Shown: positions 6,882-29,928 of the stretch, in pieces
Layout of the letters: each line of letters opens with the position of its first letter
Numbering within the stretch: the stretch's first letter is position 1
From: a virus
Length of the DNA: 32,035 nt
Virus record (IMG/VR): IMGVR_UViG_3300030108_002666
Span: 1 to 32,035 of that record
Reading direction: 5' to 3' (one strand)
Translations under genes and position numbers: made by a program
Notes under the pieces: model-generated
What the model saw: only the letters and a program-made list of their open reading frames with translations
What the model was told of the DNA's origin: nothing
The model's database searches: none

Positions 6882-7207
6882 ATTATTGTCTCCTTTATAG
6901 GTTTCTTTTCTGTATATTTTTCATATTCTTCATAGAATTCTAAAGTAGTTTCATAACCCACCCATTTAATCATAAATTGTTTAAGATGAGTTTCTTTTTG
7001 TTTCATTAATTTTTCTTGTTCTTTTTTCCATTCAATCCAACTTACTTTATTATGAGGCTTTGATAATGCCCCTCTTAGTTGCTTGTAAGTTATATTATAT
7101 CGGTCTTTTAATTTTCTGAATTTTAATTCTAAATCAAGCACTTGTTCTTTCCATTCATTGTTTTCTCTTTCGAGGTTTACAATTTGTTCTTTTAGACTTT
7201 CTTTCAT
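6878..7207 (-). CDS. Coiled-coil protein, 109 aa; first gene of leftward block
   Basis: The start is set at ATG 7207 because GGTGATTAAT lies immediately upstream; longer frames run into the structured leader. The first 55 residues form a coiled coil (LKEQIVNLERENNEWKEQV), then a basic linker and an acidic/aromatic C-terminal helix. It is the gene nearest the noncoding control region, so its leader probably carries the hairpins at 7225-7382. Function unknown. Confidence 0.7.
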   Translation of the reverse strand: MKESLKEQIVNLERENNEWKEQVLDLELKFRKLKDRYNITYKQLRGALSKPHNKVSWIEWKKEQEKLMKQKETHLKQFMIKWVGYETTLEFYEEYEKYTEKKPIKETII

Positions 7208-7224
7208 ATTAATCACCTGTAGGT

Positions 7225-7402
7225 GGGAAGGTAGGGATGACGACCTAATTAACATCTCATGGTGTTAACCAAGTAACAACCCCTTAATTTACTACCCTAC
7301 CTCCCCTGTAAATTAAGGAATGTAAAGTGGAATGTGGGGAGTCCGAAGGCAAATAGTAGAAGCCTATCCACACTCTCCCCACACTCCGTTGTGTATAAAA
7401 AC
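7225..7402 (-). promoter_or_regulatory. Hairpin-rich leader of the leftward block
   Basis: Four pairings lie upstream of the 7207 start. CCTTAATTTAC (7282-7292) pairs with GTAAATTAAGG (7308-7318). GTGGGGAG (7334-7341) pairs with CTCCCCAC (7375-7382), enclosing AGGC/GCCT. TTAACA/TGTTAA pair at 7249-7268. GGGAAGGTAGGG (7225-7236) can pair with CCCTACCTCCC (7295-7305), which is the loop of the first hairpin, so a pseudoknot is possible. A TATA-like TTTTTATA reads leftward at 7395-7402. No ORF is present. Confidence 0.55.
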
Positions 7403-7450
7403 CAGTGTGGACTGTAATATCTTATAATTGATGGTTAATAAAGTTGGGGT

Positions 7451-7547
7451 GGTATCACGACATGAATTCTGTAATGCCTCAAACACATCATACCGCACAT
7501 AGATAAACGGGGAGTAATAGCCCCAAGGCATTTCTACGGGTGATACC
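7451..7547 (-). ncRNA. Tandem structured RNA motif, copy 1
   Basis: Outer stem P1: 7451-7458 with 7540-7547 (GGTATCAC/GTGATACC). Inner stem P2: 7473-7478 with 7527-7532 (AATGCC/GGCATT). Apical GC stem: 7509-7512 with 7521-7524. The joining segments GACATGAATTCTGT, CATCATACCGCA and TCTACGG are identical in copy 2, while the stems differ but still pair. That compensatory change is direct evidence for an RNA structure. The minus strand is favoured because of a U-G pair in copy 2. I recognise no known riboswitch or ribozyme. Confidence 0.65.
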
Positions 7548-7624
7548 GAATTACCTAGTAATCTATCTTGCAACATTAATAGATATACTAGAACCCTTGA
7601 ATATAACCAATAAGGAAAAGGGAA

Positions 7625-7720
7625 AGAACCAATGACATGAATTCTGTAATGTCGCCAACTCATCATACCGCATTTACAATAAAGGCTCCCACCTTTACGA
7701 CATTTCTACGGATTAGTTCT
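7625..7720 (-). ncRNA. Tandem structured RNA motif, copy 2
   Basis: P1: 7625-7633 with 7712-7720 (AGAACCAAT/ATTAGTTCT), complete only if read on the minus strand, where the odd pair is U-G; on the plus strand it is C-A. P2: 7648-7653 with 7699-7704 (AATGTC/GACATT). Apical stem: 7680-7685 with 7692-7697 (TAAAGG/CCTTTA). The conserved joining segments are the same as in copy 1, 77 nt away. The tandem layout recalls double riboswitches or duplicated ribozymes. Confidence 0.65.
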
Positions 7721-7782
7721 CTGCTTGAAAGGAGATGTTCTCCCTTTATTACTTTGCAAACCTTATTGAAATATAATTTATT

Positions 7783-8050
7783 ATTCTCAGACGTTTCTCA
7801 CATCTTTCTCAAAACTTTTCACCGATTATGTTTGAAATTTCAACACAATCAAATGTTTCTCACTTATTCTCATTATTATCATTATTCTCACTTCTCACTC
7901 TATATATACAGTGTAATAGAAGTATAGTATGTAATATAATAATAATAAATATATAATAATAATAATAATAATGATAATAATAAAAAAATCATACTATATG
8001 ACTCAGAATCGCAATGATAATTCTCAAACGCATTGAGAATAATTGAGAAT
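7783..8050. other. Candidate replication origin: TTCTCA iterons and AT-rich unwinding tract
   Basis: Seven direct copies of TTCTCA (starting 7784, 7795, 7806, 7857, 7867, 7885, 7892; several as ATTCTCA) lie left of an (AAT)n tract. On its right are an inverted pair ATTCTCAA/TTGAGAAT (8020-8040) and another TGAGAAT (8044-8050). The AAT tract is bracketed by TATAGTATG (7923-7931) and CATACTATA (7990-7998). Iterons plus an easily melted tract between opposite gene blocks is the classic appearance of an origin. No replication protein is in the window to support it. Confidence 0.5.
7923..7998. repeat. (AAT)n tract flanked by a 9-bp inverted repeat
   Basis: TATAGTATG at 7923-7931 and its exact complement CATACTATA at 7990-7998 enclose almost pure A/T sequence with repeated AAT units. 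It is part of the candidate origin. Confidence 0.6.
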
Positions 8051-8381
8051 AATACGAATCTTATGAATATTTTATACTAGATACTAATATCTATATTAAT
8101 ATAATATATTATATAATATATAACCAATTGAATTTGATATAGTAAAATGGCTAACTATTTAGGTAGGTATAACTATTACCATTTTGGGTGGTAGTAATTA
8201 TATTTGTGTTAGGTTTTACTTAGATAAAAGAGGTCACTCTCCATGTGAGATATACTGTAATGGATAATCATTTCTTTTGTCTACCTACGGGATATTGAAT
8301 TGCTTATAAAGAGGCCGCATGGCAAAATTTGCGAAATTTATAACTTTAATGAAAAATCCATTCAAGTTTAACTGCGTAACA
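8051..8381. other. Noncoding stretch, little structure seen
   Basis: A/T-rich with ATATTAATATAATATATTATATA-type sequence near 8090-8122, then mixed sequence up to the first CCATATGG promoter. I see no convincing ORF, tRNA or Shine-Dalgarno. A TATA-like CTTATAAAGAGG occurs near 8302. Confidence 0.4.
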
Positions 8382-8421
8382 ACCATATGGTACGAGTTAC
8401 TTTGTTAAGGAGAACCTTAAC
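8382..8421 (+). promoter_or_regulatory. CCATATGG promoter unit 1
   Basis: ACCATATGGT (8382-8391), ACTTTG eight nt further, and ACCTTAAC (8414-8421). ATGs follow 20 and 23 nt downstream. Unlike other copies it also has a perfect hairpin GTTAAGG-AGAA-CCTTAAC (8405-8422) that contains the TATA-like box. It probably drives the 8442-8878 gene pair. Confidence 0.6.
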
Positions 8422-8441
8422 TGATTTTGCTTACCATAGAT

Positions 8442-8708
8442 ATGATGATTTATTGGACATTAGCAACAGATGAAAACACAAACAGACAACAAATAATTTT
8501 AGGCACTAGTGAGACAGCAGTTATATGCAGTGCTAGAAATAGAAATTTATTCATTATGGGTCATATTGATTATACAAGTTATAGTGACTTATTGGATTTC
8601 TCAATTGAAGAAACCTTTGAGCATTTTTGTGAAAATGAAGATATGTCGGATGATGATGAAAGAACTTTATGGGCTAAAGCAACTGCAATTTGTGGAGGTG
8701 GGTTTTAA
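8442..8708 (+). CDS. Hypothetical acidic protein, 88 aa
   Basis: Start taken as ATG 8442 (or the adjacent ATG 8445) because the TATA-like box lies 20-23 nt upstream and no Shine-Dalgarno is seen, fitting a leaderless transcript; a TTG at 8427 is possible but unattractive. The N-terminal half is beta-rich, the C-terminal half very acidic (CENEDMSDDDERTLW) with three Cys in total. The stop overlaps the next start (TAATG). Function unknown. Confidence 0.65.
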   Translation: MMIYWTLATDENTNRQQIILGTSETAVICSARNRNLFIMGHIDYTSYSDLLDFSIEETFEHFCENEDMSDDDERTLWAKATAICGGGF

Positions 8709-8878
8709 TGTTTCAAAGAAGACATTATACTAAAATCGCTGAAGTTTTAGCAGAAACTAAACCTGATAGCACCACTTTAGAATATTTAATGCAAATGTTC
8801 GAAAAAGATAACCCTAATTTCAATAGGGGTCGTTTTCTGAAAGCCTGTAAGGTGGAAAATGACGAAGTTGCGGGGTAA
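8708..8878 (+). CDS. Hypothetical small protein, 56 aa
   Basis: ATG 8708 has a strong GGAGGTG Shine-Dalgarno 7 nt upstream and overlaps the preceding stop, so it is the second gene of a two-gene unit. It is helical, basic at the N-terminus (FQRRHYTKIAEVLAETK), with a C-terminal NRGRFLKAC patch. No family recognised. Confidence 0.65.
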   Translation: MFQRRHYTKIAEVLAETKPDSTTLEYLMQMFEKDNPNFNRGRFLKACKVENDEVAG

Positions 8879-8933
8879 TACTCGCTTCACTTCTTTCTTG
8901 CAAAGCCCTCATTTAGTGAAACGAAAATGTATT

Positions 8934-8969
8934 ACCATATGGTTTGGCACTTTGTCCGCAGACCTTAAT
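8934..8969 (+). promoter_or_regulatory. CCATATGG promoter unit 2
   Basis: ACCATATGGT (8934-8943), N6, ACTTTG (8950-8955), then ACCTTAAT (8962-8969). By the 22-nt rule seen at other units, transcription would start near 8992, far upstream of the next gene (ATG 9247), so the transcript has a leader of about 255 nt or a separate RNA. Confidence 0.6.
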
Positions 8970-8991
8970 ACTAATTTGAATTCCAATGGAT

Positions 8992-9246
8992 AGTCAAGTG
9001 GTGATTGAACCTTCGGGGAATATCATCATGCGATTAGAGCAGGGTAAACGAAATTAACCAATGCGACACGATGTATCACAGGGTGAACCGTAAGATTGCT
9101 ATAATTTTCCTAGGAAGTTATGGATGCACTTTCGAGAAGGCAACAGACTTGTAGAGCCGTCCCTCCGATTGCGATTAAAAGTAAGTTACTAAGGATAGAT
9201 GCGCATAAACCTAAACTGTTCGGCTTAAACTCAACAGGTGAAAAAT
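8992..9246 (+). ncRNA. Long leader or noncoding RNA upstream of the 9247 gene
   Basis: A region of 255 nt with no convincing ORF except a 23-codon frame from ATG 8985. Its base composition is more balanced than the AT-rich genes. Local pairings include TTCCTAGGAA and a TGC-A-CTT/AAG-G-CA stem with a TCGAG loop near 9130-9146. It lies downstream of a promoter that at other sites drives leaderless genes, so this long untranslated segment is probably functional. I cannot match it to tmRNA, RNase P, SRP or an intron. Confidence 0.4.
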
Positions 9247-9450
9247 ATGAAATGGTTTAACAGAAAAAATACAGTTGAAGAAGTAGTTACAAACACAGAA
9301 CAAAGATTTGTTATTGAGGTTGGTCATAACCGTAATAATGAATTAATCATCAAGAAGATGAGAGTAAGTGGTGATGACTTAGAACAATGTATTACCGATT
9401 TACAGTTAGCCCTGCAAGATTTCAAAGTCTTAAGGGCAACAGAACAATGA
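9247..9450 (+). CDS. Hypothetical protein, 67 aa
   Basis: ATG 9247 with AGGTGA ten nt upstream; the GTG at 9238 lies inside that site and is rejected. Begins KWFNRKN, then beta strands (QRFVIEVGHN, NELIIKKMRVSG) and an acidic/hydrophobic helix (DDLEQCITDLQLALQDF). A small alpha/beta protein; function unknown. A UUCG-type hairpin follows the stop. Confidence 0.65.
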   Translation: MKWFNRKNTVEEVVTNTEQRFVIEVGHNRNNELIIKKMRVSGDDLEQCITDLQLALQDFKVLRATEQ

Positions 9451-9455
9451 CCCCA

Positions 9456-9463
9456 CCTTCGGG
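9456..9463 (+). terminator. UUCG-tetraloop mini-hairpin after the 9247-9450 gene
   Basis: CC-TTCG-GG six nt after the stop codon, the same element seen behind at least four other genes in this region. The stem is short, so it is a 3'-end mark rather than a proven terminator. Confidence 0.4.
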
Positions 9464-9497
9464 CGAGTTCTGTTATGTAAGGTTCGGGCAAAGCGCA

Positions 9498-9534
9498 ACC
9501 ATATGGTAAGGCACTTTGTCAGTCGCACCTTATA
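9498..9534 (+). promoter_or_regulatory. CCATATGG promoter unit 3
   Basis: ACCATATGGT (9498-9507), N6, ACTTTG (9514-9519), ACCTTATA (9527-9534). Predicted start near 9557, giving a leader of about 47 nt with a GGAG Shine-Dalgarno before ATG 9604. CAAAG on the left (9489-9493) completes the nested dyad. Confidence 0.6.
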
Positions 9535-9603
9535 ACCAATTAGACTTGCAATGAGTGGAGGTCAAACAAGTTGAATTAACTTAATTGACAGGAGATGAAA
9601 AAT

Positions 9604-10128
9604 ATGGCAGATTATACAATGGACGAAGAAAAATGGAATGCCCGAGTTGCCCTAATCGAGAATGATTTATCAATCAACGATAGAGGTAGCATGGAAGCAG
9701 TTCTAAGATGGAATTTAGAAACAGGTACTACTGATGTAGAAAACCGTAAAAGATATTGGACTAATGTTTCCAATCTTTACGCTACTGTTGACAACTCACC
9801 GATTAAATTTGGTAAGCAATCAACACTCCCCCAAGTAGTACAGGATTCACTTGCAACATTAAAGGCAATTTATGCCGAAGGTCACTCTGCACTTTTTGCG
9901 ACTCACCCACTCTTTGGTGAGTACGAATCAAAAAGAGGTGCTTACTCAACACCATACGGTGACAGTGAATCATACGTGAGTGCAATGGTATCATTATTCG
10001 CTGATTCGATGACACAAATGTATAAGAATCACAGAGATAATGTTACAGATAAAAAACAATGGGATGGTACTCTAAATAAAAACGGATTACCAACAATTGT
10101 AATACCAACTAAGGAGGTCGAAGGTTAA
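9604..10128 (+). CDS. Hypothetical protein, 174 aa
   Basis: ATG 9604 is preferred: GGAG lies nine nt upstream, whereas the in-frame ATG 9595 abuts it. Mostly helical with a Trp/Arg-rich first third (RWNLETGTTDVENRKRYW) and a Gly/Ser/Tyr-rich middle. The C-terminus is a short beta segment, GLPTIVIPTKEVEG. No metal site or known motif. It has its own promoter and is followed by a CCCC/GGGG hairpin. Function unknown. Confidence 0.65.
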   Translation: MADYTMDEEKWNARVALIENDLSINDRGSMEAVLRWNLETGTTDVENRKRYWTNVSNLYATVDNSPIKFGKQSTLPQVVQDSLATLKAIYAEGHSALFATHPLFGEYESKRGAYSTPYGDSESYVSAMVSLFADSMTQMYKNHRDNVTDKKQWDGTLNKNGLPTIVIPTKEVEG

Positions 10129-10147
10129 ACCTAACGGTTTGGCCTCC

Positions 10148-10163
10148 ACCCCTTATATGGGGT
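10148..10163 (+). terminator. GC hairpin after the 9604-10128 gene
   Basis: ACCCC-TTATAT-GGGGT, followed by TCT. It is located 20 nt after the stop, where other units have the UUCG hairpin, so it likely marks the transcript end. Confidence 0.4.
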
Positions 10164-10177
10164 TCTGACAAAGTGCA

Positions 10178-10216
10178 ACCATATGGTAATGAATACTTTG
10201 GAGTAATTACCCTATA
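10178..10216 (+). promoter_or_regulatory. CCATATGG promoter unit 4 (no gene downstream)
   Basis: ACCATATGGT (10178-10187), N8, ACTTTG, and ACCCTATA (10209-10216) running into AAAATAATAG, the most TATA-like box of the set. CAAAG lies on the left. No rightward ORF follows; the next genes are leftward. It therefore probably drives a noncoding RNA. Confidence 0.55.
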
Positions 10217-10238
10217 AAATAATAGCAGAAAGACATAG

Positions 10239-10378
10239 GGGCTCCCCCCTATATCTCCCCACATTTAGGATATTACAACATAGTTAACATTCAAGTTAGC
10301 GTGAGAACCCTGCCTATGTGTTTTGCCCGTCCATCTCGGCGGTCCATGACTTGAGTAAGGTCACAGTCCGTCTTTTCC
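10239..10378 (+). ncRNA. Candidate noncoding RNA from promoter unit 4
   Basis: By the 22-nt rule the transcript starts near 10239. The segment has no ORF of note. It contains ATAGGGG-CTCC-CCCCTAT at its start, a possible longer pairing of ACATAGG (10233-10239) with CCTATGT (10313-10319), and a hairpin around TGACTT-GAG-TAAGGTCA. It ends in a CCGTCTTTT-like T-run near 10378, just before the convergent gene ending at 10382. The promoter plus terminator-like end make an RNA gene plausible; no known class recognised. Confidence 0.45.
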
Positions 10379-10381
10379 ATG

Positions 10382-10486
10382 TTAGACCCAATTCCACCAA
10401 AATTCAATCCAATTTATATTTTTGGATTTTCTTATTTCTCTTAATAGTTCTTCGTCTTCTCTTTCTTGTCTTTCTTCTTTATTCAT
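10382..10486 (-). CDS. Hypothetical mini-protein, 34 aa
   Basis: ATG 10486 directly follows the TAA of the upstream gene and has GGAGG thirteen nt upstream. Very acidic/basic helical N-terminus (NKEERQEREDEELLREIRK), then a Trp-rich end (WIEFWWNWV). The strong Shine-Dalgarno and stop-start adjacency support it despite its length. The Trp-rich tail could touch a membrane or a partner protein. Confidence 0.55.
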   Translation of the reverse strand: MNKEERQEREDEELLREIRKSKNINWIEFWWNWV

Positions 10487-10690
10487 TTATTCCAACCTCC
10501 TTACGATGTCACTCACATATACTGAGCCCATTTCATCATAGAAACCAATATCAGAACCGAAGACATGCATTAAAACTACAGTCTTAAACCCTCGTCCCTG
10601 TTTTGGACTTTCTAATAGTTGCGCTCTTAAGTCATAACCAAAGTTATTGATTACATACCATTCTCCCTTTACCAAATCACTTGCGTTCAT
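10487..10690 (-). CDS. Hypothetical SH3-like small protein, 67 aa
   Basis: ATG 10690 lies exactly 22 nt from the TATA-like box, so the transcript is probably leaderless. The opening NASDLVKGEWYVINNFGYDLRAQLLES resembles the start of small beta-barrel (SH3-like) proteins, and the strands VVLMHVFG and GSVYVSDIV continue the pattern. This fold suggestion is weak. It is followed at once by the 34-aa gene. Confidence 0.65.
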   Translation of the reverse strand: MNASDLVKGEWYVINNFGYDLRAQLLESPKQGRGFKTVVLMHVFGSDIGFYDEMGSVYVSDIVRRLE

Positions 10691-10712
10691 ACCATTTGTA
10701 AACTAAGTTATA

Positions 10713-10747
10713 CATAAGGTAGTTCTCAAAGTTCCCTACCATATGGT
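10713..10747 (-). promoter_or_regulatory. CCATATGG promoter unit 5 (leftward)
   Basis: Read leftward: ACCATATGGT (10747-10738), N6, ACTTTG, N6, ACCTTATG (10720-10713), then 22 nt to ATG 10690. Confidence 0.65.
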
Positions 10748-10832
10748 TCGTGAAAAATGTAGTGAATATCTGGTTTTCTGTAACATGTGACAATTAATGT
10801 TGAAAAGTTAGTAATAACTACAAATGTTCATT

Positions 10833-10842
10833 ACCATATGGT
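10833..10842. repeat. CCATATGG box without a clear promoter context
   Basis: ACCATATGGT with ACTTTG on the right but only ACATTTG on the left, and no ACCTYATA on either side. The 85 nt between this copy and unit 5 hold no ORF. It may be a remnant of a lost unit or a pure regulator site. Confidence 0.5.
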
Positions 10843-10860
10843 CTTAACTTTGTAAAAATG

Positions 10861-10872
10861 GCCCCGAAGGGC
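10861..10872 (-). terminator. UUCG hairpin plus U-run after the 10881-11363 gene
   Basis: On the minus strand GCCC-TTCG-GGGC followed by CATTTTT: a tetraloop stem plus short U-run, the best terminator candidate of the set, eight nt beyond the stop codon. Confidence 0.55.
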
Positions 10873-10880
10873 GCTATCGA

Positions 10881-11363
10881 TTAGGAGTAATCGTATTTTG
10901 CCTCTTGTCTGCAAAATATCATCCATCCTGAATCCATCTTTTTAACCCAAAACCCTGCATCTTTGATAGTTTGTTTTTCTGCCTTCCAAAAATCCCAAAA
11001 AGCAGAAGTAGCATGAGCCCACATGACTTTACCAGATTTAGCAGTTTTGAATTCTGCTCCAAATGCATTCCATTTGTTATATTTCATTCTAGGGGTTTCA
11101 TGGTATTGAATTGAAACCGCATCCCAAAAGTTACTTTCAACTAACTGGTTAAATGTATCTGTAGCCTTTTCAAGAGCATCAGTTAAGGAATGTGCTAAGT
11201 TCTGTCGGAAGTCGCAGAAACCATTAGTACCAAATTCTCTTTTAATTACTCCTTCATGATACAATGTATAAAACTGTTCTTTTTTACCAGTTCTACAAAC
11301 ATGCAAAACACTAATATTGTTTATTTGTTCTTTATCGCTAACATAACTAGGTAGTTCGTCCAT
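10881..11363 (-). CDS. Hypothetical protein, 160 aa
   Basis: ATG 11363 is chosen because it lies exactly 22 nt from the ACCTTATA box; the longer frame to 11414 would run through the promoter. The protein is alpha/beta, rich in aromatic residues, with clustered Trp near the C-terminus (MWAHATSAFWDFWKAE). Three Cys are scattered and form no metal motif. No family recognised. It is the sole gene of its transcription unit. Confidence 0.65.
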   Translation of the reverse strand: MDELPSYVSDKEQINNISVLHVCRTGKKEQFYTLYHEGVIKREFGTNGFCDFRQNLAHSLTDALEKATDTFNQLVESNFWDAVSIQYHETPRMKYNKWNAFGAEFKTAKSGKVMWAHATSAFWDFWKAEKQTIKDAGFWVKKMDSGWMIFCRQEAKYDYS

Positions 11364-11385
11364 GTTAATATTAGTAACTAGTGCA

Positions 11386-11424
11386 TATAAGGTATATAAG
11401 TTACAAAGTATCATACCATATGGT
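11386..11424 (-). promoter_or_regulatory. CCATATGG promoter unit 6 (leftward)
   Basis: Leftward: ACCATATGGT (11424-11415), N6, ACTTTG, N10, ACCTTATA (11393-11386), 22 nt to ATG 11363. Confidence 0.65.
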
Positions 11425-11442
11425 CATAACTTTGAGATTATT

Positions 11443-11454
11443 GACCCGAAGGCC
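11443..11454 (-). terminator. UUCG hairpin after the 11456-11686 gene
   Basis: Minus strand GGCC-TTCG-GGTC directly after the stop. One pair is G-U only on the minus strand (A-C on plus), which fits leftward transcription. Confidence 0.5.
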
Positions 11455-11455
11455 G

Positions 11456-11686
11456 TTAATTTAATTGGTCAAAATACCACCTTCCATTAACCATTAATTT
11501 ATCTAATGGTATTCCTGTAACGATTGATAATTGGCAACAAGGGGTGCAGTATTTTGGTCCGTAAAAACCTTCAGGGTGTCTACTATCCATCGTAAGGTTA
11601 TTACATACATCACATACTGTAAATTCATCTAATGCGTCTTCTTTTCCTCTTTTATATCCATTCCAAAACATCTTTGCTTCTGTCAT
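11456..11686 (-). CDS. Zinc-finger-like protein, 76 aa
   Basis: ATG 11686 lies 22 nt from ACCTTATA, so the longer frame to 11740 is rejected. After a basic helix (WNGYKRGKEDALDEF) it has CDVC, then CTPCC about twenty-five residues later: a four-Cys site likely to bind zinc. The C-terminal third (IPLDKLMVNGRWYFDQ) is a compact alpha/beta piece. DNA/RNA binding or adaptor function is possible but not shown. Confidence 0.65.
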   Translation of the reverse strand: MTEAKMFWNGYKRGKEDALDEFTVCDVCNNLTMDSRHPEGFYGPKYCTPCCQLSIVTGIPLDKLMVNGRWYFDQLN

Positions 11687-11708
11687 GATTATAGTAATTA
11701 TGAGTAAG

Positions 11709-11745
11709 TATAAGGTGTAGCATCCAAAGTTACACACCATATGGT
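11709..11745 (-). promoter_or_regulatory. CCATATGG promoter unit 7 (leftward)
   Basis: Leftward: ACCATATGGT (11745-11736), N6, ACTTTG, N8, ACCTTATA (11716-11709), 22 nt to ATG 11686. Confidence 0.65.
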
Positions 11746-11763
11746 CATAACTTTGTTGTTAGT

Positions 11764-11775
11764 GACCCGAAGGCC
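11764..11775 (-). terminator. UUCG hairpin after the 11777-11905 gene
   Basis: Minus strand GGCC-TTCG-GGTC one nt beyond the stop, identical to the hairpin at 11443-11454. Confidence 0.5.
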
Positions 11776-11776
11776 T

Positions 11777-11905
11777 TTATTCTTCTTCCTCTTTTTTCTT
11801 TTCTGCGTCTATTCTTGCCCAATATGCTTTCCATAAGGGACTTTCAAACCCATTGTTATCAAACATTCTGCGTCCTTTCTTAGCCATATATTGCTTCTTC
11901 TTCAT
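11777..11905 (-). CDS. Hypothetical basic/acidic mini-protein, 42 aa
   Basis: ATG 11905 overlaps the stop of the 41-aa gene (ATGA). Lys-rich start (MKKKQYMAKKGRRMF), then an aromatic centre (PLWKAYWARI) and an all-charged C-terminus (EKKKEEEE). It may bind nucleic acid, on charge alone. It is the second gene of a two-gene leaderless unit. Confidence 0.6.
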   Translation of the reverse strand: MKKKQYMAKKGRRMFDNNGFESPLWKAYWARIDAEKKKEEEE

Positions 11906-12027
11906 TCTACCACCTCACATCGAGGGCATCTGCATCCGTTCCTCATTCCCATTAATTCAAACATTCTTCTTTCACATCCATCAAATTCATTCAATGCTAT
12001 CTCTGCTAATACTACTCCTACGTGCAT
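11902..12027 (-). CDS. Cys-rich mini-protein, 41 aa
   Basis: ATG 12027 lies 22 nt from ACCTTATA, which makes the gene and its start credible despite the length. Helical N-terminal half with one Cys, then GCRCPRCEVVE: four Cys in total, compatible with one zinc ion. Function unknown. Confidence 0.6.
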   Translation of the reverse strand: MHVGVVLAEIALNEFDGCERRMFELMGMRNGCRCPRCEVVE

Positions 12028-12049
12028 ATTAGTATAATCAGTTAATCCC

Positions 12050-12110
12050 TATAAGGTGTCTTTACAAAGTATAACACCATATGGTATGATACTTTGTGGA
12101 ATACCTCATA
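12050..12110. promoter_or_regulatory. Bidirectional CCATATGG promoter (units 8 and 9)
   Basis: The most symmetrical copy. ACCATATGGT (12076-12085) is flanked on both sides by N6 and ACTTTG reading outward, then ACCTCATA rightward (12103-12110) and ACCTTATA leftward (12057-12050). Each TATA-like box is exactly 22 nt from a start codon, ATG 12133 to the right and ATG 12027 to the left. This is the clearest proof that the palindrome works in both directions. Confidence 0.75.
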
Positions 12111-12132
12111 GAGAACTAATCAATAATAGAGT

Positions 12133-12393
12133 ATGACTAATTATGAACACTGGGAAGATATGGTTAAAGAATATAAGAAACAATATGATGACGAAGACGG
12201 AATACCTGAATTTATTGATGGTTTAGTGCCTGTTTATTATAATGAGATATTAGAGGTTTTTAATGATATGACCGAATTAATAACGGCTGATGATGTGGGC
12301 CTTTCTATTTGGCAAGTAATGACTAAACACATTTACAATAGTTATTATGAGTCATTCATGGGTGAATGGGACGGCTTCGATGAAGAAGAATAA
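12133..12393 (+). CDS. Hypothetical very acidic protein, 86 aa
   Basis: ATG 12133 lies 22 nt from ACCTCATA with no Shine-Dalgarno, so it is probably leaderless. Rich in Asp/Glu, Tyr and Trp throughout with an acidic C-terminus (GEWDGFDEEE), giving it the look of a DNA-mimic-type protein. That is only a charge-based suggestion. No motif recognised. Confidence 0.65.
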   Translation: MTNYEHWEDMVKEYKKQYDDEDGIPEFIDGLVPVYYNEILEVFNDMTELITADDVGLSIWQVMTKHIYNSYYESFMGEWDGFDEEE

Positions 12394-12394
12394 C

Positions 12395-12404
12395 GCCTTC
12401 GGGC
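12395..12404 (+). terminator. UUCG hairpin after the 12133-12393 gene
   Basis: GCC-TTCG-GGC two nt beyond the stop codon on the plus strand. Confidence 0.45.
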
Positions 12405-12425
12405 AATACCCGCAAAGCATGTATT

Positions 12426-12435
12426 ACCATATGGT
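12426..12435. repeat. CCATATGG box between convergent genes
   Basis: ACCATATGGT with ACTTTG only four nt to the right and CAAAGCAT to the left. It lies between the ends of two convergent genes, so it cannot be a normal promoter for either neighbour. No ACCTYATA box is present. Confidence 0.5.
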
Positions 12436-12461
12436 AGTACTTTGGCGACTACCCCAATGGA

Positions 12462-12680
12462 TTACTCCAAAGGGTGGTCAACGTCCTTATCACCTAAAAC
12501 CCATCGAAGCGATTTAATTACTCCTTCTAAGGCTTTAAATTGACGCATATGAAATATACGTTCTTTTTTAGGTAGATTCTTACTCATTTCGATTGAGTGA
12601 AAGTTTTGTTTCCTTTCTGCCTTGTCTAACATGTTTTCTATCTGTTCCCAATTCCTATCATAAGTGAAATGTCCATTCAT
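12462..12680 (-). CDS. Hypothetical protein, 72 aa
   Basis: ATG 12680 overlaps the stop of the preceding gene. Charged, helical (WEQIENMLDKAERKQNFHSIEM), followed by a basic stretch and a helix (QFKALEGVIKSLRWVLG). Last gene of a three-gene leftward unit. Function unknown. Confidence 0.65.
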   Translation of the reverse strand: MNGHFTYDRNWEQIENMLDKAERKQNFHSIEMSKNLPKKERIFHMRQFKALEGVIKSLRWVLGDKDVDHPLE

Positions 12681-12937
12681 TCTGTTTCCCCCATTATTTG
12701 ATTATATTCCTCTTGTGTTATATAGCCGAATTCTAATGCTATTTCAAGATGTTCTTCTACCCAAAACCCTAAAGGCCATTCTGTAGTTTCAGAACGACAA
12801 CATTCTGAACCTTCACATTCGAACCATTCAGTTGATATTCTACCATGACCGTAACAGACTTCTTCACTATCTTTCCAAGTTATCAGTTCTGTTGGCTCAT
12901 TACATGAGTCACATATAGTTACTAATTCATCACTCAT
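12677..12937 (-). CDS. Cys-rich acidic protein, 86 aa
   Basis: ATG 12937, ATGA-linked upstream. Contains CDSCNEP near the N-terminus and further Cys (CYGHG, FECEGSECC) in the next forty residues, likely one or two zinc sites. The C-terminal half (GFWVEEHLEIALEFGYITQEEYNQIMG) is a helical pair. Family not recognised. Confidence 0.65.
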   Translation of the reverse strand: MSDELVTICDSCNEPTELITWKDSEEVCYGHGRISTEWFECEGSECCRSETTEWPLGFWVEEHLEIALEFGYITQEEYNQIMGETE

Positions 12938-13146
12938 TCTTCTTCACCACCTTCAACCATATATCTTTCAAACTCAACATATCTAGTTATTTCTATCCTT
13001 AAATTATGAAAAACTGCTATGTGTTTCTCACTCATTGTTTCTCTAAAGTCTAACAATTCAGTTAAACTATCAAAGTAGTATGTTGTTTTTTTCGTTATTT
13101 CTCCACTCTCAAAGACCATATCTCCGTATGTATTTTCTATTCGCAT
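12934..13146 (-). CDS. Hypothetical protein, 70 aa
   Basis: ATG 13146 lies 22 nt from ACCTCATA, so it is a leaderless first gene of a three-gene unit. Beta-rich start (MRIENTYGDMVFESG), central helix (DSLTELLDFRETM), further strands and an acidic tail. Function unknown. Confidence 0.65.
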   Translation of the reverse strand: MRIENTYGDMVFESGEITKKTTYYFDSLTELLDFRETMSEKHIAVFHNLRIEITRYVEFERYMVEGGEEE

Positions 13147-13168
13147 ATCTACAGGATTCTAATTGTGT

Positions 13169-13204
13169 TATGAGGTCGTGTGGGCAAAGCACACAACCAT
13201 ATGG
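13169..13204 (-). promoter_or_regulatory. CCATATGG promoter unit 10 (leftward)
   Basis: Leftward: CCATATGGT (13204-13196), N6, GCTTTG, N8, ACCTCATA (13176-13169), 22 nt to ATG 13146. This is the rightmost copy in the window. Confidence 0.65.
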
Positions 13205-13328
13205 CTTTGCATAAATTTTTTATTTTATGGTAAAACGACTAACTGAGTGCTTTAAACGTTAAAAGTAACACTTTATACGGTATATCTATTAATTAAACCA
13301 CTCTGCATACCTCTCAACAGGTTATCTT

Positions 13329-13541
13329 ATGGCTATTAATAATTTACTTGACATAAAGAAAAATATCTTAAACGCTACGGCTAAAACTAACAGAAAAGGC
13401 TTGCTTTTAACGCTAAAAGATATACATAATGTTGCCCCTGTAAGTTATAATGAATGCTCTGCTAGTACTTTAAAGTCTAAAGTACTAAGCGAGTTATTTA
13501 CGAAGGAAGATATACTGCTATTGATGGAGGATAAGAGTTAA
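13329..13541 (+). CDS. Hypothetical small protein, 70 aa
   Basis: ATG 13329 after CAACAGGTTATCTT. Helical and basic (LLDIKKNILNATAKTNRKGLLL), ending in an acidic helix (LFTKEDILLLMEDKS). The helix spacing would suit a small DNA-binding protein, but no HTH consensus is clear. It stands alone between the promoter mosaic and the late operon, a position often held by a regulator of late genes; that role is speculative. Confidence 0.6.
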   Translation: MAINNLLDIKKNILNATAKTNRKGLLLTLKDIHNVAPVSYNECSASTLKSKVLSELFTKEDILLLMEDKS

Positions 13542-13563
13542 ACGGGTATTGGCTGGAAATAGA

Positions 13564-13587
13564 TTTAAACGGCCAAAAAATTTTTTG
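13564..13587 (+). promoter_or_regulatory. Probable late-operon promoter with a 14-bp palindrome
   Basis: TTTAAA at 13564-13569 (in AGATTTAAAC) lies about 70 nt before the first late gene. The perfect palindrome CAAAAAATTTTTTG (13574-13587) follows at once and would overlap the transcription start region. It could be an operator, or a terminator for the 13329 gene. The CCATATGG element is absent here, so late genes are probably under separate control. Confidence 0.45.
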
Positions 13588-13638
13588 CTAGTCCCACACA
13601 AATTACCGCCCATTTTTTGAAAAAGTTAGGTGATAGAA

Positions 13639-14469
13639 ATGACCCCCATAAGTATTTACGAAGTTGGACCTAGAGATGGGTTGCAAAATTGGAAAGGAAG
13701 TTTAACTACTGATGAAAAAATTAGTCTGATAAATGATTTATATGATGCAGGGCTAACTGAAATTGAAATTACATCGTTTGTTCATCCAAAAAGAGTTCCT
13801 AACTTAGCGGATGCTGAGAATGTAGTTGCTGGAACTAAGGGTTTGGCGGATTTCGGAGTTCTTGTGCCGAATCTAAAAGGATTTGAAAGAGCAAAAGATG
13901 TTGGGGCTACTAGGTTTAATGTGTGTTTTTCTCCTTCTGAAGAATTTAATGTTAGGAATTGGGGGAAGCGTTTAGATGTGCTTTATGCCGAATATATTGA
14001 GATGTTGGATGGGGTCGATAAAGAGAATGTTAGAGTTTATGTTTCTTGTGCGTTTGGTTGTCCGTATGAAGGGCTTCCAAATGAGTATAAGATGCTAAGG
14101 GTTCTAAAGATGGCTTCTAAATTAGGCAATACGGTTGTTTTGTGTGATACGGTTGGAGCATGTTATCCAAGTAAGTTGTTACAGACGTTGGAGTTGACTA
14201 GGGGTTTACCTGTTGAGATTGCATTGCATTTACATGAGGGTGCTAATGATATGTTTCGAAATGTAGAGGCGGCAATAGAATGGGGTGTAACTACTTTTGA
14301 TGCGAGTGTTGGTGGATTGGGAGGATGTCCCTTTATGCCAAATAGCGGAAATAACCTTTCAACGAATAGATTAATTGAGTGGGCTCATAGTCGTGGGTAT
14401 CAGACAGGAGTTAATTTAGCGGAATTAACTCGGCTGGCTAATTGGTTGGAGAACAAGGTGGAAGCGTGA
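13639..14469 (+). CDS. Hydroxymethylglutaryl-CoA lyase (HMG-CoA lyase)
   Basis: Cleaves HMG-CoA to acetyl-CoA and acetoacetate. DRE-TIM-barrel signatures run in order: EVGPRDGLQN (Arg/Asp), IEITSFVHPKRVPNLADAE, SCAFGCPYEG, CDTVG, HLHE (two metal His), and GGLGGCPFMPNSGNN with the lyase-specific Cys and the SGN Asn. All usual catalytic and metal residues appear present, so it should be active. At 276 aa it is slightly short. ATG 13639 is chosen because GGTGAT ends four nt upstream. It lacks the MSW..ILK tag and is GTGA-linked to the next gene. I know of no such enzyme as a standard viral gene; it is probably host-derived. Confidence 0.88.
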   Translation: MTPISIYEVGPRDGLQNWKGSLTTDEKISLINDLYDAGLTEIEITSFVHPKRVPNLADAENVVAGTKGLADFGVLVPNLKGFERAKDVGATRFNVCFSPSEEFNVRNWGKRLDVLYAEYIEMLDGVDKENVRVYVSCAFGCPYEGLPNEYKMLRVLKMASKLGNTVVLCDTVGACYPSKLLQTLELTRGLPVEIALHLHEGANDMFRNVEAAIEWGVTTFDASVGGLGGCPFMPNSGNNLSTNRLIEWAHSRGYQTGVNLAELTRLANWLENKVEA

Positions 14470-15356
14470 GTTGGAAAGATATTCTTAAATTGTTGCCTCC
14501 AAAAGATTATGAAGGTTTTGCATATCAAGAAACTAGTGATAAAACGTTTAAAGAAGTAAAGGTTGAAGGAGAAGTTTGGGGTAGGTTTACTGGTGCTATA
14601 AATGAAGATAAAACAATTTTTACTAGACCTCATTATTTATGGGCTGTTACTAATAGAAGTCCAGAAAGGGGTAAATCTCCTAGAAACGAAATAGAAAATC
14701 TTGCTTCTAAAATTACAGATAGAAGAAAATCTAAAGGATGGGTTTGGAGATTCCCCGATGTTAAAAATATAGAAATGATTTCTTTTTCTTATTCGGGCGG
14801 GAGAGTTACCTTCAATACTTATTTAGGAAAAAACCAAAATAGGAGTTTTCCATTGAAAGATTTTGTAAATATTTGGGGAGAACCTGTTAGTGAAGCAGTT
14901 AAGAGAAACCGAGGATGGAATACAACATTAGAAGATAACTCTGCATATAGAGGACAAGAATTGAATAGGGTGGACACTCATCTCAAAAATGTATTTAAAA
15001 AAAGTATTAGTTATTCTGCTGTTGTTCTTGATGAGAAATCCAGAAATAAATTGTTAGAATTAGTTCCCGAAGGATGGAAACCTATTGCTCATCATATGAC
15101 AATTAAACTTGGACCGTTGCGAGATTCAAAATATAAGGTGGGAGATAAAGTTTCAATGAATATTACTGCTATTGGTATTGATGATAGGGCAATGGCTGTT
15201 AAAGTAGATGCTGAGAGAGATGATGATAAGTTTGCTCATGTAACGATTGCAACTAGCCCTGATGGTGGTAAACCATTTCATTCGAATCAGATTGAGAATT
15301 TTAAAAAATACAGTGGTAAGTTAAGTGGGGTTGTGGAAGAAGTTCCTAATAGGTGA
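14466..15356 (+). CDS. MSW-tagged 2H-phosphoesterase-like RNA end-processing protein
   Basis: GTG 14466 overlaps the lyase stop (GTGA) and gives the tag MSWKDILKLL. An unassigned N-terminal domain follows. From about residue 180 there is a domain with two H-x-T motifs, HHMTIKLG (about 209) and HVTIATSP (about 258), with GGKPFHSNQI after the second. Paired HxT motifs define the 2H phosphoesterase superfamily, whose members open 2',3'-cyclic phosphates during RNA and tRNA repair. Position directly before a CCA-adding enzyme supports an RNA-repair role. The fold call is from motifs only; 296 aa. Confidence 0.65.
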   Translation: MSWKDILKLLPPKDYEGFAYQETSDKTFKEVKVEGEVWGRFTGAINEDKTIFTRPHYLWAVTNRSPERGKSPRNEIENLASKITDRRKSKGWVWRFPDVKNIEMISFSYSGGRVTFNTYLGKNQNRSFPLKDFVNIWGEPVSEAVKRNRGWNTTLEDNSAYRGQELNRVDTHLKNVFKKSISYSAVVLDEKSRNKLLELVPEGWKPIAHHMTIKLGPLRDSKYKVGDKVSMNITAIGIDDRAMAVKVDAERDDDKFAHVTIATSPDGGKPFHSNQIENFKKYSGKLSGVVEEVPNR

Positions 15357-27137: not shown

Positions 27138-28589
27138 ATGGAAATAAAAAACTTAGACTTTAGTAGAAATATGGATTTAGAGTTATCTAAAAACTCCTTT
27201 CCTTATTTCTTTACAGAAGTTCTAGGTTTTGAGTTTACTGCTTTTCATCAAGAATGGTTAGACCTAATGAATACAACTGATAGAACTGTTGTTATCTGTA
27301 GTCGTGACCATGGAAAATCCGTATTCATGCATTCGTGGGCAGTATGGCAGTTATGTTTTCAACCTGCTCCTTATCAGATGTTATACATTTCTTCTAACCA
27401 TAAACAGACTATGGTTCATATGAGAGATATAGATAAACTGTTTAACAATCCAACTATTGCTCATTTTAGACCATCAAGAGGATGGGCTGTAGGAAACATT
27501 ACTCTCACTAACGGTAATTCAATTTTAGAACGCTCAGTAGGTTCTCAGATTAGAGGGCTTCATCCACAAGAAATAATTATTGATGACCCTCTAAAAGAAT
27601 TCAGTTTAACTGCTATTAAAAAAGTTACAGATTGGTTTTTTGGTGATATGATTCCTACACTTCACCATACTGCTAGTCTTAGAATGATTGGAACTCCTTT
27701 TACTTATACAGATATTTTTAGTTTATTAGCCAGTGAGGAATATTCAGAAGTTTATACTGTTAGAAACTATCCTTGTCTTAATCAGAACAATGAACCTTTA
27801 TGGCCCTCTCGTTGGGATTATGACTCTTTAATGCAAAGAAAAAAAGAAGTAGGTTCATTAAAATTTACAAGAGAATATCTATGTATCCCTATATCTACTG
27901 GAACTGCTTTATTCGCTCAAGAACATATAGATGCATGTAAAGAAGCAGGTAAAAAAGATATTCTACGGTTAAGACATAGAAAGGATTCGGGATATAATTA
28001 CTATGTAGGCGTTGACCCTGCTATTTCTACTGACGGGGATTATAATGTTATTATGGTTTTAGAAGTAGATGAACAAAGAAATAAAAGAATCATTTATGTT
28101 GATAGACAAAAGAATGTAGAGTTTAGAGATAACATAAATAAAATAAAGATGGTTGCTCAATTATTTGAACCCGATGTAATCTATTTTGAAACAAATACAT
28201 TTGCTAAATCTTTTACTCAAGAGTTGCGTAATGAAACCGATTTAAATATTAGAGATGTTACTATGACTCGTAGGAAGAAAGAGGAAATTATTCTTAATTT
28301 ACAAATGAATATAGAAAACGCTAAGATTATATTTCCTAGAGGAAATGATGAATCGAGAAAAGTGACTGATAATATTATAGAGGAATTATCTATGTTTAGT
28401 ATTACTGACAGTGGAAAGTTTGAAGGGGTGGGTGCGCACGATGACTTAGTTATGGGACTCGCTCTTGCTAATTCCGCTACACATGATATGTTAGAATCAA
28501 TTATATTATTAGATGACATGGCAATATTTGATAATGAGCAACCACAGGCCACTGTTATAGGAGGGGGAGCATTTGGACTTAATTTCTAA
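27138..28589 (+). CDS. terL: Terminase large subunit (TerL)
   Basis: ATP-driven DNA packaging motor with nuclease. ATPase: Walker A CSRDHGKS (about 54-61), Walker B EIIIDD (145-150), coupling motif MIGTP (183-187). RNase H-like nuclease: GVDPA Asp (about 293), FETN Glu (351), GAHDDLVMGLA Asp (about 434-435). All key residues are present and 483 aa is usual for the family. ATG 27138 is chosen with GTGATTAAT upstream. It has no MSW tag, as expected for a protein that leaves the virion. Confidence 0.95.
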   Translation: MEIKNLDFSRNMDLELSKNSFPYFFTEVLGFEFTAFHQEWLDLMNTTDRTVVICSRDHGKSVFMHSWAVWQLCFQPAPYQMLYISSNHKQTMVHMRDIDKLFNNPTIAHFRPSRGWAVGNITLTNGNSILERSVGSQIRGLHPQEIIIDDPLKEFSLTAIKKVTDWFFGDMIPTLHHTASLRMIGTPFTYTDIFSLLASEEYSEVYTVRNYPCLNQNNEPLWPSRWDYDSLMQRKKEVGSLKFTREYLCIPISTGTALFAQEHIDACKEAGKKDILRLRHRKDSGYNYYVGVDPAISTDGDYNVIMVLEVDEQRNKRIIYVDRQKNVEFRDNINKIKMVAQLFEPDVIYFETNTFAKSFTQELRNETDLNIRDVTMTRRKKEEIILNLQMNIENAKIIFPRGNDESRKVTDNIIEELSMFSITDSGKFEGVGAHDDLVMGLALANSATHDMLESIILLDDMAIFDNEQPQATVIGGGAFGLNF

Positions 28590-29928
28590 AAGTGAAGAAG
28601 GGGATAAACTTCGAGAAGAAGCACAAAGAGTTAGTGAATTAGCAGAATTAAAAGATAGAGAACAAGAAATAAAAGACCAATTAGAAACAGTTGATAAATG
28701 GATTTCGACTTTACCTCTTATGAGTGATTATGAAGTAGCAATGAGTGTTTCTAAGAGATATAATATGAATATAACAGAGGCAAAATCTCAGTTAGATTCT
28801 TTTCCAAAACAATATACAATAGAAAATAAATCAATTCCAGAAGTTGTTAAAGATTTAAAAAAACATAGACGAAAATTAAAAGGAGACAATAAATTAGAAT
28901 TCACTAAAGGAATAGAAAATTTAATTGTTGCTTATTCTAATCATCTATCTGACTGTATAAAATCTATTTATTGGTTAGCACCATATGAAACTCCCCTTAG
29001 ACAAATGAGATATACAGAAAATGATTTAAAGAAAATTCACTCTATTAAAGATGAAGGAACTAGAAGAGATATTATAGAAAGTTTGTGTAAATTTTGGGAG
29101 GCAGAATTACATAGAGGTAATGAGTATAATTCTAATTATTCTTCCTTAACTAAAACGATGACTAATTCTAAAAGGGAGTTTAGAAAAATAATAACTGATA
29201 TTCCTAATCAAGTTATTAAGACTAATGTTTCTAAACAATTAGATGATTTTGTTTTAAAATCAGTATGTAATGAACAAGGAATATCTGCTAGACAAATATA
29301 TGATAGATTACCAACTAAATTACATAGAAGGGCTTCTCCACAAATTATCTGTAAAATAGCAGATAAAATGAATATCACTAATATAGATGGGGAATATTAT
29401 AAATTACCTATGGAAATTAAAAAAGACCTTTATGCTTATACTGCGGCCTTTATAGATTCAGATGGTTACATAACTATGGATAGAAATTATAATCCTAGAA
29501 TTGGAATTATTGCTACGGGTAATAGGGGTAAAGCATTCGTAACTGAATTACATAAAGAACTAGGATTTGGTAAATTACATTTAGACCAAAAATCCCCACA
29601 AGCAACTAGGGCTGTTCAAAGGTTAAACTTTTATTCTCAAGATGATATTACTAAGTTGATTTCGAAAACTAGACCACACTATAGAATGAAAGGAGATAAT
29701 GCTGACATCCTTACAGAGTTAATTCGTATAAAGAAAAATCACAAAAAACAATCTTGGGCCAAAGAAAGAATGCAAGAATTATTTAAGTTGATGAAATGGG
29801 CCAACCACGCAGACCATGTTAATTACGACTTTTCAAAGGATGGTATAGACGTGGAGAATATTGCTAAATATAAGGAGAATAATAAAATGAGTGTTATGGA
29901 TAAATTAGAAACAGGAGTAGTGGTATAA
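28573..29928 (+). CDS. LAGLIDADG-domain protein between TerL and portal, 451 aa
   Basis: TTG 28573 overlaps the TerL end by 17 nt. The N-terminal 220 residues are helical and charged. Residues about 225-280 look like a winged helix (ARQIYDRLPTKL, ISARQ). AAFIDSDGYITMD (about 290-303) is a LAGLIDADG motif followed by the expected alpha/beta homing-endonuclease fold pattern (LGFGKLHLDQ, PHYRMKGDNADI). Only one motif is seen, so it would act as a dimer. No intein splice motifs. It may be a homing endonuclease or a domesticated DNA-binding protein. Confidence 0.7.
   Translation: MDLISKSEEGDKLREEAQRVSELAELKDREQEIKDQLETVDKWISTLPLMSDYEVAMSVSKRYNMNITEAKSQLDSFPKQYTIENKSIPEVVKDLKKHRRKLKGDNKLEFTKGIENLIVAYSNHLSDCIKSIYWLAPYETPLRQMRYTENDLKKIHSIKDEGTRRDIIESLCKFWEAELHRGNEYNSNYSSLTKTMTNSKREFRKIITDIPNQVIKTNVSKQLDDFVLKSVCNEQGISARQIYDRLPTKLHRRASPQIICKIADKMNITNIDGEYYKLPMEIKKDLYAYTAAFIDSDGYITMDRNYNPRIGIIATGNRGKAFVTELHKELGFGKLHLDQKSPQATRAVQRLNFYSQDDITKLISKTRPHYRMKGDNADILTELIRIKKNHKKQSWAKERMQELFKLMKWANHADHVNYDFSKDGIDVENIAKYKENNKMSVMDKLETGVVV

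Follow-up and report, generated by a model that had tools for sequence, protein, structure and literature searches.

The closest described kind of sequence to the DNA element reported here is found in the PeSL (promoter early stem-loop) elements of T4-type phages, together with the inverted-repeat/TATA motif of halovirus HGTV-1. Our element is built around an 8-bp palindromic core, CCATATGG, which recurs between positions 8382 and 13204 of a viral DNA stretch of 32,035 nucleotides (IMG/VR record IMGVR_UViG_3300030108_002666, positions 1 to 32,035; hereafter the window), where one and the same piece of DNA appears, from the sequences compared, both to control genes and to serve as the joint at which they are rearranged. 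In T4-type phages the PeSL is a promoter-bearing intergenic repeat lying between small genes and, in the passages devoted to it, is cited as mediating modular shuffling (PMC4503421). In HGTV-1, an archaeal tailed virus, a TATA-like box and an inverted repeat precede many open reading frames (ORFs), for which a role in regulating transcription and in gene shuffling has been proposed (PMC3950731), and the intergenic repeats of haloviruses HF1 and HF2, archaeal tailed viruses as well, are described in the relevant part of the source as having promoter activity (PMC7230728).

The locus in the window resembles PeSL in that the promoter lies inside a repeated intergenic element and in that relatives exchange modules at this element. 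It differs from PeSL in its shared core, an 8-bp palindrome instead of a promoter-terminator stem-loop, and in its terminator hairpins, which are separate and lie outside the conserved core near about a third (34%) of the sides facing gene 3' ends; moreover, cassettes here also invert, the promoter appears archaeal and leaderless, and the array is confined to one locus of ~4 kb. The modular shuffling attributed to PeSL reportedly goes back to Arbiol 2010 and Comeau 2014. As for HGTV-1, its repeat is a long stem-loop of the CTCCTCGTGGCACGAGGAG type, CCATATGG occurs only four times in its 144 kb, and no cassette permutation is shown in PMC3950731. The repeats of HF1 and HF2 are long, AT-rich and placed strategically relative to transcripts, and the portion of the source that treats them describes neither a palindromic core nor a cassette array.

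The first-pass annotation of the window, made by reading its letters only, had placed ACCATATGG at 11 sites from 8382 to 13204 and nowhere else, and this proved right on both counts: all 11 coordinates carry it, giving 21 strand matches against a shuffle mean of 0.31 (maximum 3), and it is likewise missing from the other 11 kb of the viral record (43,474 bp). Ten copies are the perfect palindrome ACCATATGGT and the eleventh, at 13196, reads ACCATATGGC. ACTTTG does accompany the palindrome as had been claimed, on at least one side at ten sites and as GCTTTG at the eleventh, but not at a spacing of only 6 or 8 nt, since the gap from ACCATATGGT to ACTTTG ranges from 3 to 7 nt. The shorter word CTTTG lies 3-9 bp from most window copies, directly abuts one side at 13196, and stands on both sides at 9498, 10178, 11415, 11736, 12076 and 12426, promoterless sides included.

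Beyond the window, the pattern ACCATATGGT-N(2-8)-ACTTTG was found in at least 120 viral contig stretches, with up to 10 occurrences per locus, and 40 such records hold the bare palindrome 267 times and a reversed control pattern not once. To avoid the circularity of records picked by their motif, relatives of the window's terminase were sampled as a second set; among those of at least 60 kb, 23 of 25 contain the palindrome, with 165 copies against a single match to the reversed control, so that the motif search in related genomes proposed by the first-pass annotation finds the motif conserved. Wherever positions were listed, each genome has one cluster of 2-8 kb, and the two clusters of a 184-kb record (G010), 94 kb apart, fit a tandemly assembled genome. 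Complete arrays span ~3.9 kb, with a median of 8 cores spaced at 471 bp. Between neighbouring palindromes lie one to three small genes, of which those in the window match almost no known family, and across 55 arrays the same gene families recur in varied order and orientation; one of them, c0, is present in 23 of 25 complete arrays, usually in one or two copies (maximum three), its start usually lying 60-100 bp after a core.

The anatomy of a promoter can be seen around these cores. When palindrome sides were sorted, on the basis of our own simple and crude gene calls, by whether they face a gene start or a gene end, CTTTG turned out to be equally common on both (82% of gene-facing and 87% of other sides), and it is therefore part of a symmetric element that bears no promoter arrow; the idea that CTTTG or ACTTTG reads toward a transcript has to be given up. 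TATA, on the other hand, occurs on 56% of gene-facing versus 12% of other sides, and a UUCG-type hairpin sequence lies near 6% of the sides facing gene starts versus 34% of those facing 3' ends. A motif fit on the gene-facing sides yields ACC[CT][TC]A[TA]A, which in most cases begins 13-22 bp from the palindrome and is followed by a peak of ATG codons 21-26 nt past the box. This ACCYTATA box is specific to the array, with 50 matches among 273 array genes against 3 among 482 genes more than 800 bp outside. In the window, a ACCTTATA-like box with an ATG 21-24 nt downstream is found at 8382 (+), 10738 (-), 11415 (-), 11736 (-), 12076 (+ and -) and 13196 (-), the ATG standing 22 nt past the box in six promoters, and the boxes at 8934 (+), 9498 (+) and 10178 (+) have a different or longer leader. 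Archaeal leaderless promoters carry a TATA-type box some 22-27 nt before the start codon; the box-to-ATG spacing here appears to be the geometry of such leaderless transcription, and it supports reading the element as a putative promoter. Core and CTTTG are separated by anything from 3 to 10 bp, and the spacers on the two sides of a core are not complementary to each other, which leaves no room for a conserved nested hairpin.

The same cores are the points at which related arrays part company. In L055, a relative whose terminase is 98% identical to that of the window and whose array blocks are 88% identical, identity runs up to the core at 8382, 8934 and 12076 and then gives way to an unrelated cassette, and the window's cassette 11415-11736 is cleanly absent. 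Two further viruses, L040 and L120, are collinear over a 4.6-kb flank, and between them the array is permuted, with three blocks inverted and nearly every boundary at CCATATGG. One core of L040, TCCATATGGA, is chimeric, combining the left base of TCCATATGGT with the right base of ACCATATGGA, both from L120, which places the crossover within the 8-bp CCATATGG.

For a wider survey we defined as a recombinant junction any core that joins, in one virus, the arms of two different cores of another, and applied this to 96 non-redundant arrays with 635 cores, related viruses included. We found 38 such junctions at CCATATGG, over 30 cores in 17 arrays, 14 of them in mixed orientation, and where only one arm of a site pair is homologous (275 pairs), homology comes as close to the 8-mer as 2 bp or less in 160 pairs and 9 bp or less in 220. 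As a control, the count was repeated for 60 further 8-mers that are frequent in these arrays (4,898 sites, 7.7 times more), which gave 8 junctions against 732 intact pairs, compared with 38 against 128 for CCATATGG, and several of those 8 involve 8-mers touching or flanking the core; the terminator hairpin CCCGAAGG gave none against 16 intact pairs and five CTTTG-containing 8-mers together 2 against 74. Non-collinear junctions within arrays likewise fall at most 20 bp from a core in 13 of 15 cases, including all five inversions. Uninterrupted identity between parent cores extends over only 8-15 bp, which does not exceed that of random core pairs (P = 0.10), and counting matching flank bases less strictly gives a slight excess (P = 0.02); identity of 8-15 bp is below what homologous recombination usually needs. 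Since assembly words are much longer than the cores, assembly error is an unlikely source of the junctions. L040 and L120 have a second repeated word, ACTAAGCGT with its complement, near cassette 3' ends, and no examined junction lies there. At the edge of the array, positions 12025-14540 are 92% identical to another relative, L336, whose next 14 kb are 97-98% identical; recombination or evolution therefore seems quicker in the array region than in the virion block.

As a result, the regulon of independent units put forward in the first-pass annotation needs to be widened. The motif does appear to mark independent transcription units on both strands, with a TATA-type box and a leaderless ATG on the gene-facing side, yet the word regulon covers only half of the element's role, as the core is also a point of exchange and inversion. 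That annotation had noted neither this nor the restriction of the elements to a single locus in each virus.

The viruses that carry such arrays appear, from their gene content, to be magrovirus-like tailed viruses of marine archaea. The traits that point to magroviruses (a split family-B DNA polymerase, a viral TFB, an HMG-CoA lyase gene and opposed gene blocks) are all found within the array-bearing group: PolB matches, for the most part divided into two, occur in 21 of 25 records, viral TFB matches occur in 8 of 25, and in the window an HMG-CoA-lyase-like (HMGL) gene adjoins the array and the genes form two opposed blocks. Aoguangviridae are reported to have such a pair of opposed blocks (PMC10768690). 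The 43-kb record to which the window belongs gave no match to PolB or TFB, and it may be a fragment or a smaller relative. The viral TFB is a candidate reader of the ACC-TATA box, though only a third of the searched records have a match to it. From the magrovirus relationship the hosts would be Poseidoniales. Magroviruses are reported to be ubiquitous in the surface ocean, and to our knowledge none has been cultured so far.

Searching 84,980 cellular genomes (GTDB) returned the two-sided pattern at 17 loci, only one of which is clustered, and the scattered remainder is about what chance would give (10-25 by our estimate). The clustered locus, L121 (NZTP01000027.1), is a 14.7-kb contig filed under an Altibacter metagenome-assembled genome; it bears five elements, c0 genes and the same viral gene families, and is probably a piece of a magrovirus that was binned with a bacterial genome in error. 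Apart from this contig the cellular matches are single and scattered, and a host motif was dismissed on that ground; the motif is specific to the viruses.

Taken together, we consider it probable that this is a cassette array of magrovirus-like viruses whose composite element is both the upstream part of a promoter and a joint for cassette gain, loss, movement and inversion. A cassette would then consist of one to three small genes with their own promoter, bounded by CAAAG-N(3-10)-A-CCATATGG-T-N(3-10)-CTTTG. A protein, probably virus-encoded, would bind the symmetric element as the upstream part of an array-specific archaeal promoter, and the ACCYTATA box 13-22 bp away would set the start of transcription at or near the ATG ~22 nt further on. 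The 8-bp palindromic core would act as the joint between related viruses, and since it is symmetric, a cassette could join either way round and keep its own promoter arm. What we infer is that a protein binds the element, that the element works as an activator or operator site, and what brings the rearrangements about; array-specific boxes with leaderless spacing, a symmetric element that does not depend on the promoter side, conservation, and junctions at the core in both orientations are seen directly in the sequences. For the agent of rearrangement we give roughly equal weight to an unrecognised enzyme and to general end-joining or recombination combined with selection for intact units.

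Several points weigh against this interpretation. Intergenic junctions could be enriched simply by selection that favours intact gene-plus-promoter units; some breakpoints lie off the core, as in the comparison of the window with L336, where similarity ends 52 bp from it; a few related groups account for several of the junctions, which puts the number of independent events below 38; and neither a recombinase nor a binding protein was identified. Phage_integrase (PF00589) matched none of 35 array-bearing or closely related records and all 14 control genomes, bearing in mind that an enzyme could escape where a record is partial or the enzyme divergent, and Resolvase (PF00239) matched none of the same 35. 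According to PMC10768690, no integrase or transposase can be identified in Aoguangviridae. It is conceivable, at somewhat less than an even chance, that the elements are promoter operators and nothing else, and that general or microhomology recombination during co-infection, with no enzyme acting on the core, leaves as surviving joints those that keep units intact. This would agree with the clear promoter context, with the missing tyrosine and serine recombinases, with the existence of breakpoints away from the core and with the fact that the core is the longest sequence common to all cassettes; but other repeated intergenic 8-mers, such as CCCGAAGG and the CTTTG-containing words, are used far less, and the parent sites that recombined share no longer identity than random pairs.

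It is tempting to hypothesize instead an unrecognised, virus-encoded site-specific recombination system with crossover at CCATATGG and CAAAG/CTTTG as protein-binding arms, in which c0 might take part, although we hold this idea only tentatively. Joints that follow the core to the base, in both orientations and independently of homology length, would be expected of such a system, as would CTTTG arms on both sides in any promoter context and the near-constant presence of c0 in complete arrays. An arm-core distance that varies between 3 and 10 bp is unlike known recombinase sites, however, and c0 has no recognisable conserved catalytic signature or known fold match. The locus recalls a shufflon, where inversion occurs between inverted copies of a short site, in that cassettes are inverted with ends at CCATATGG, but no cognate tyrosine or serine recombinase was found in the 35 records and its arms stand at no fixed distance. 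A magrovirus mode of recombination dispensing with tyrosine and serine recombinases, in which an 8-bp palindrome within a promoter flips and reorders cassettes, as an analogue of integrons and shufflons whose joints are transcriptionally competent either way round, is possible but in our opinion rather doubtful. A true integron-like system, with the element folding as a single-strand attC-like site for an integrase, is the least credible of all: there is indeed an array of promoter-bearing ORFan cassettes with inverted-repeat boundaries, gained, lost and reordered as in integrons, but no IntI-type tyrosine recombinase was found in the 35 records, cassettes lie in both orientations, and a conserved hairpin or attC-like fold is ruled out by spacers that are not complementary and by arms that do not covary, are unequal in length and form no conserved stem. 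We regard it as very improbable that the repeats are iterons of a replication origin, or a partition site, placed where the genome arms diverge; each genome has a single cluster, which in the window lies between leftward and rightward gene blocks, but the sites stand at promoter positions and cassette joints, are spaced by whole genes and are accompanied by array-specific boxes.

Table 1. Palindromic elements of the window and the cassette genes between them
Feature	Coordinates	Strand	Description
Element 1	8382..8391		Core ACCATATGGT; CTTTG on + side; box ACCTTAA; predicted promoter of + strand pair 8442-8878
Cassette 1	8442..8878	+	Two small genes, no known family; cassette exchanged in L055
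Element 2	8934..8943		Core; CTTTG and ACCTTAAT box on + side; L055 homology switches at core
c1 family gene	9250..9450	+	Family present in 27 of 55 arrays
Element 3	9498..9507		Core; CTTTG on both sides; ACCTTATA box on + side, upstream of c0 gene
c0 family gene	9595..10128	+	New family, all-helical by prediction
Element 4	10178..10187		Core; CTTTG on both sides; ACCCTATA box on + side
c100 family gene	10487..10690	-	No known family
Element 5	10738..10747		Core; CTTTG and ACCTTATG box on - side (gene 10487-10690)
Element 6	10833..10842		Core, 95 bp from element 5; CTTTG on + side, by hairpin at 3' end of gene 10881-11414
c41 family gene	10881..11414	-	Weak DUF2063 match, under cut-off
Element 7	11415..11424		Core; CTTTG on both sides; ACCTTATA box on - side (gene 10881-11414); edge of cassette absent in L055
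Cassette gene	11456..11740	-	Absent here in L055: precise cassette gain or loss
Element 8	11736..11745		Core; CTTTG on both sides; ACCTTATA box on - side (gene 11456-11740); other edge of cassette absent in L055
Element 9	12076..12085		Putative divergent promoter: ACCTCATA (+) and ACCTTATA (-), each 22 nt before ATG; L055 homology switches at core
c14 family gene	12133..12393	+	Other cassette in its place in L055
Element 10	12426..12435		Core; CTTTG on both sides
Three-gene operon c99, c49, c13	12462..13146	-	Promoter predicted at element 11
Element 11	13196..13205		Variant ACCATATGGC; CTTTG on both sides; ACCTCATA box on - side (operon 13146-12462)

Among the genes of Table 1, the c0 product is modelled by AlphaFold2 as mainly helical (mean predicted local distance difference test score 87, predicted template-modelling score 0.56); it has no PHROG, phage or PDB relative and no fold match, and one nameless viral model is 55% identical to it. 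Another gene, c6, was considered as a regulator beside the array and set aside, its sequence looking to us, from reading without a search, like an all-alpha nucleotide pyrophosphatase. About 250 bp upstream of the c1 gene, positions 8985-9237 (+) hold no long ORF and are nevertheless conserved (89% over 217 bp in L320). As regards a structured RNA, 7200-13700 has no Rfam match, and the predicted fold of 8975-9240 does not surpass that of shuffled sequences. In the virion block, at least nine otherwise unrelated proteins (+ strand starts 14466, 15361, 18539, 19629, 24621, 25547, 25949, 26292 and 31574) begin with a shared N-terminal motif, M/V-x-W-x-x-[IVL]-L-K, as in MTWEDILK and MSWQDILK, which also occurs in the relatives L120 and L040 and may be a shared tag for targeting, for instance into the prohead. 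A 451-amino-acid ORF (28573-29928, +) that lies between the genes for terminase and portal reads in its C-terminal part like a LAGLIDADG homing endonuclease, with no Pfam match.

In the literature we found no earlier report of magrovirus promoter elements or gene-shuffling joints, and a search for the motif sequence gave only unrelated papers among the matches listed. The element would define the promoter of the variable gene region of magroviruses and would explain how small genes without known relatives are exchanged unit by unit, and it leads to a precise prediction, namely crossover at CCATATGG in either orientation. Finally, if an enzyme does act on the core, these viruses would hold a new recombination system and possibly a tool.

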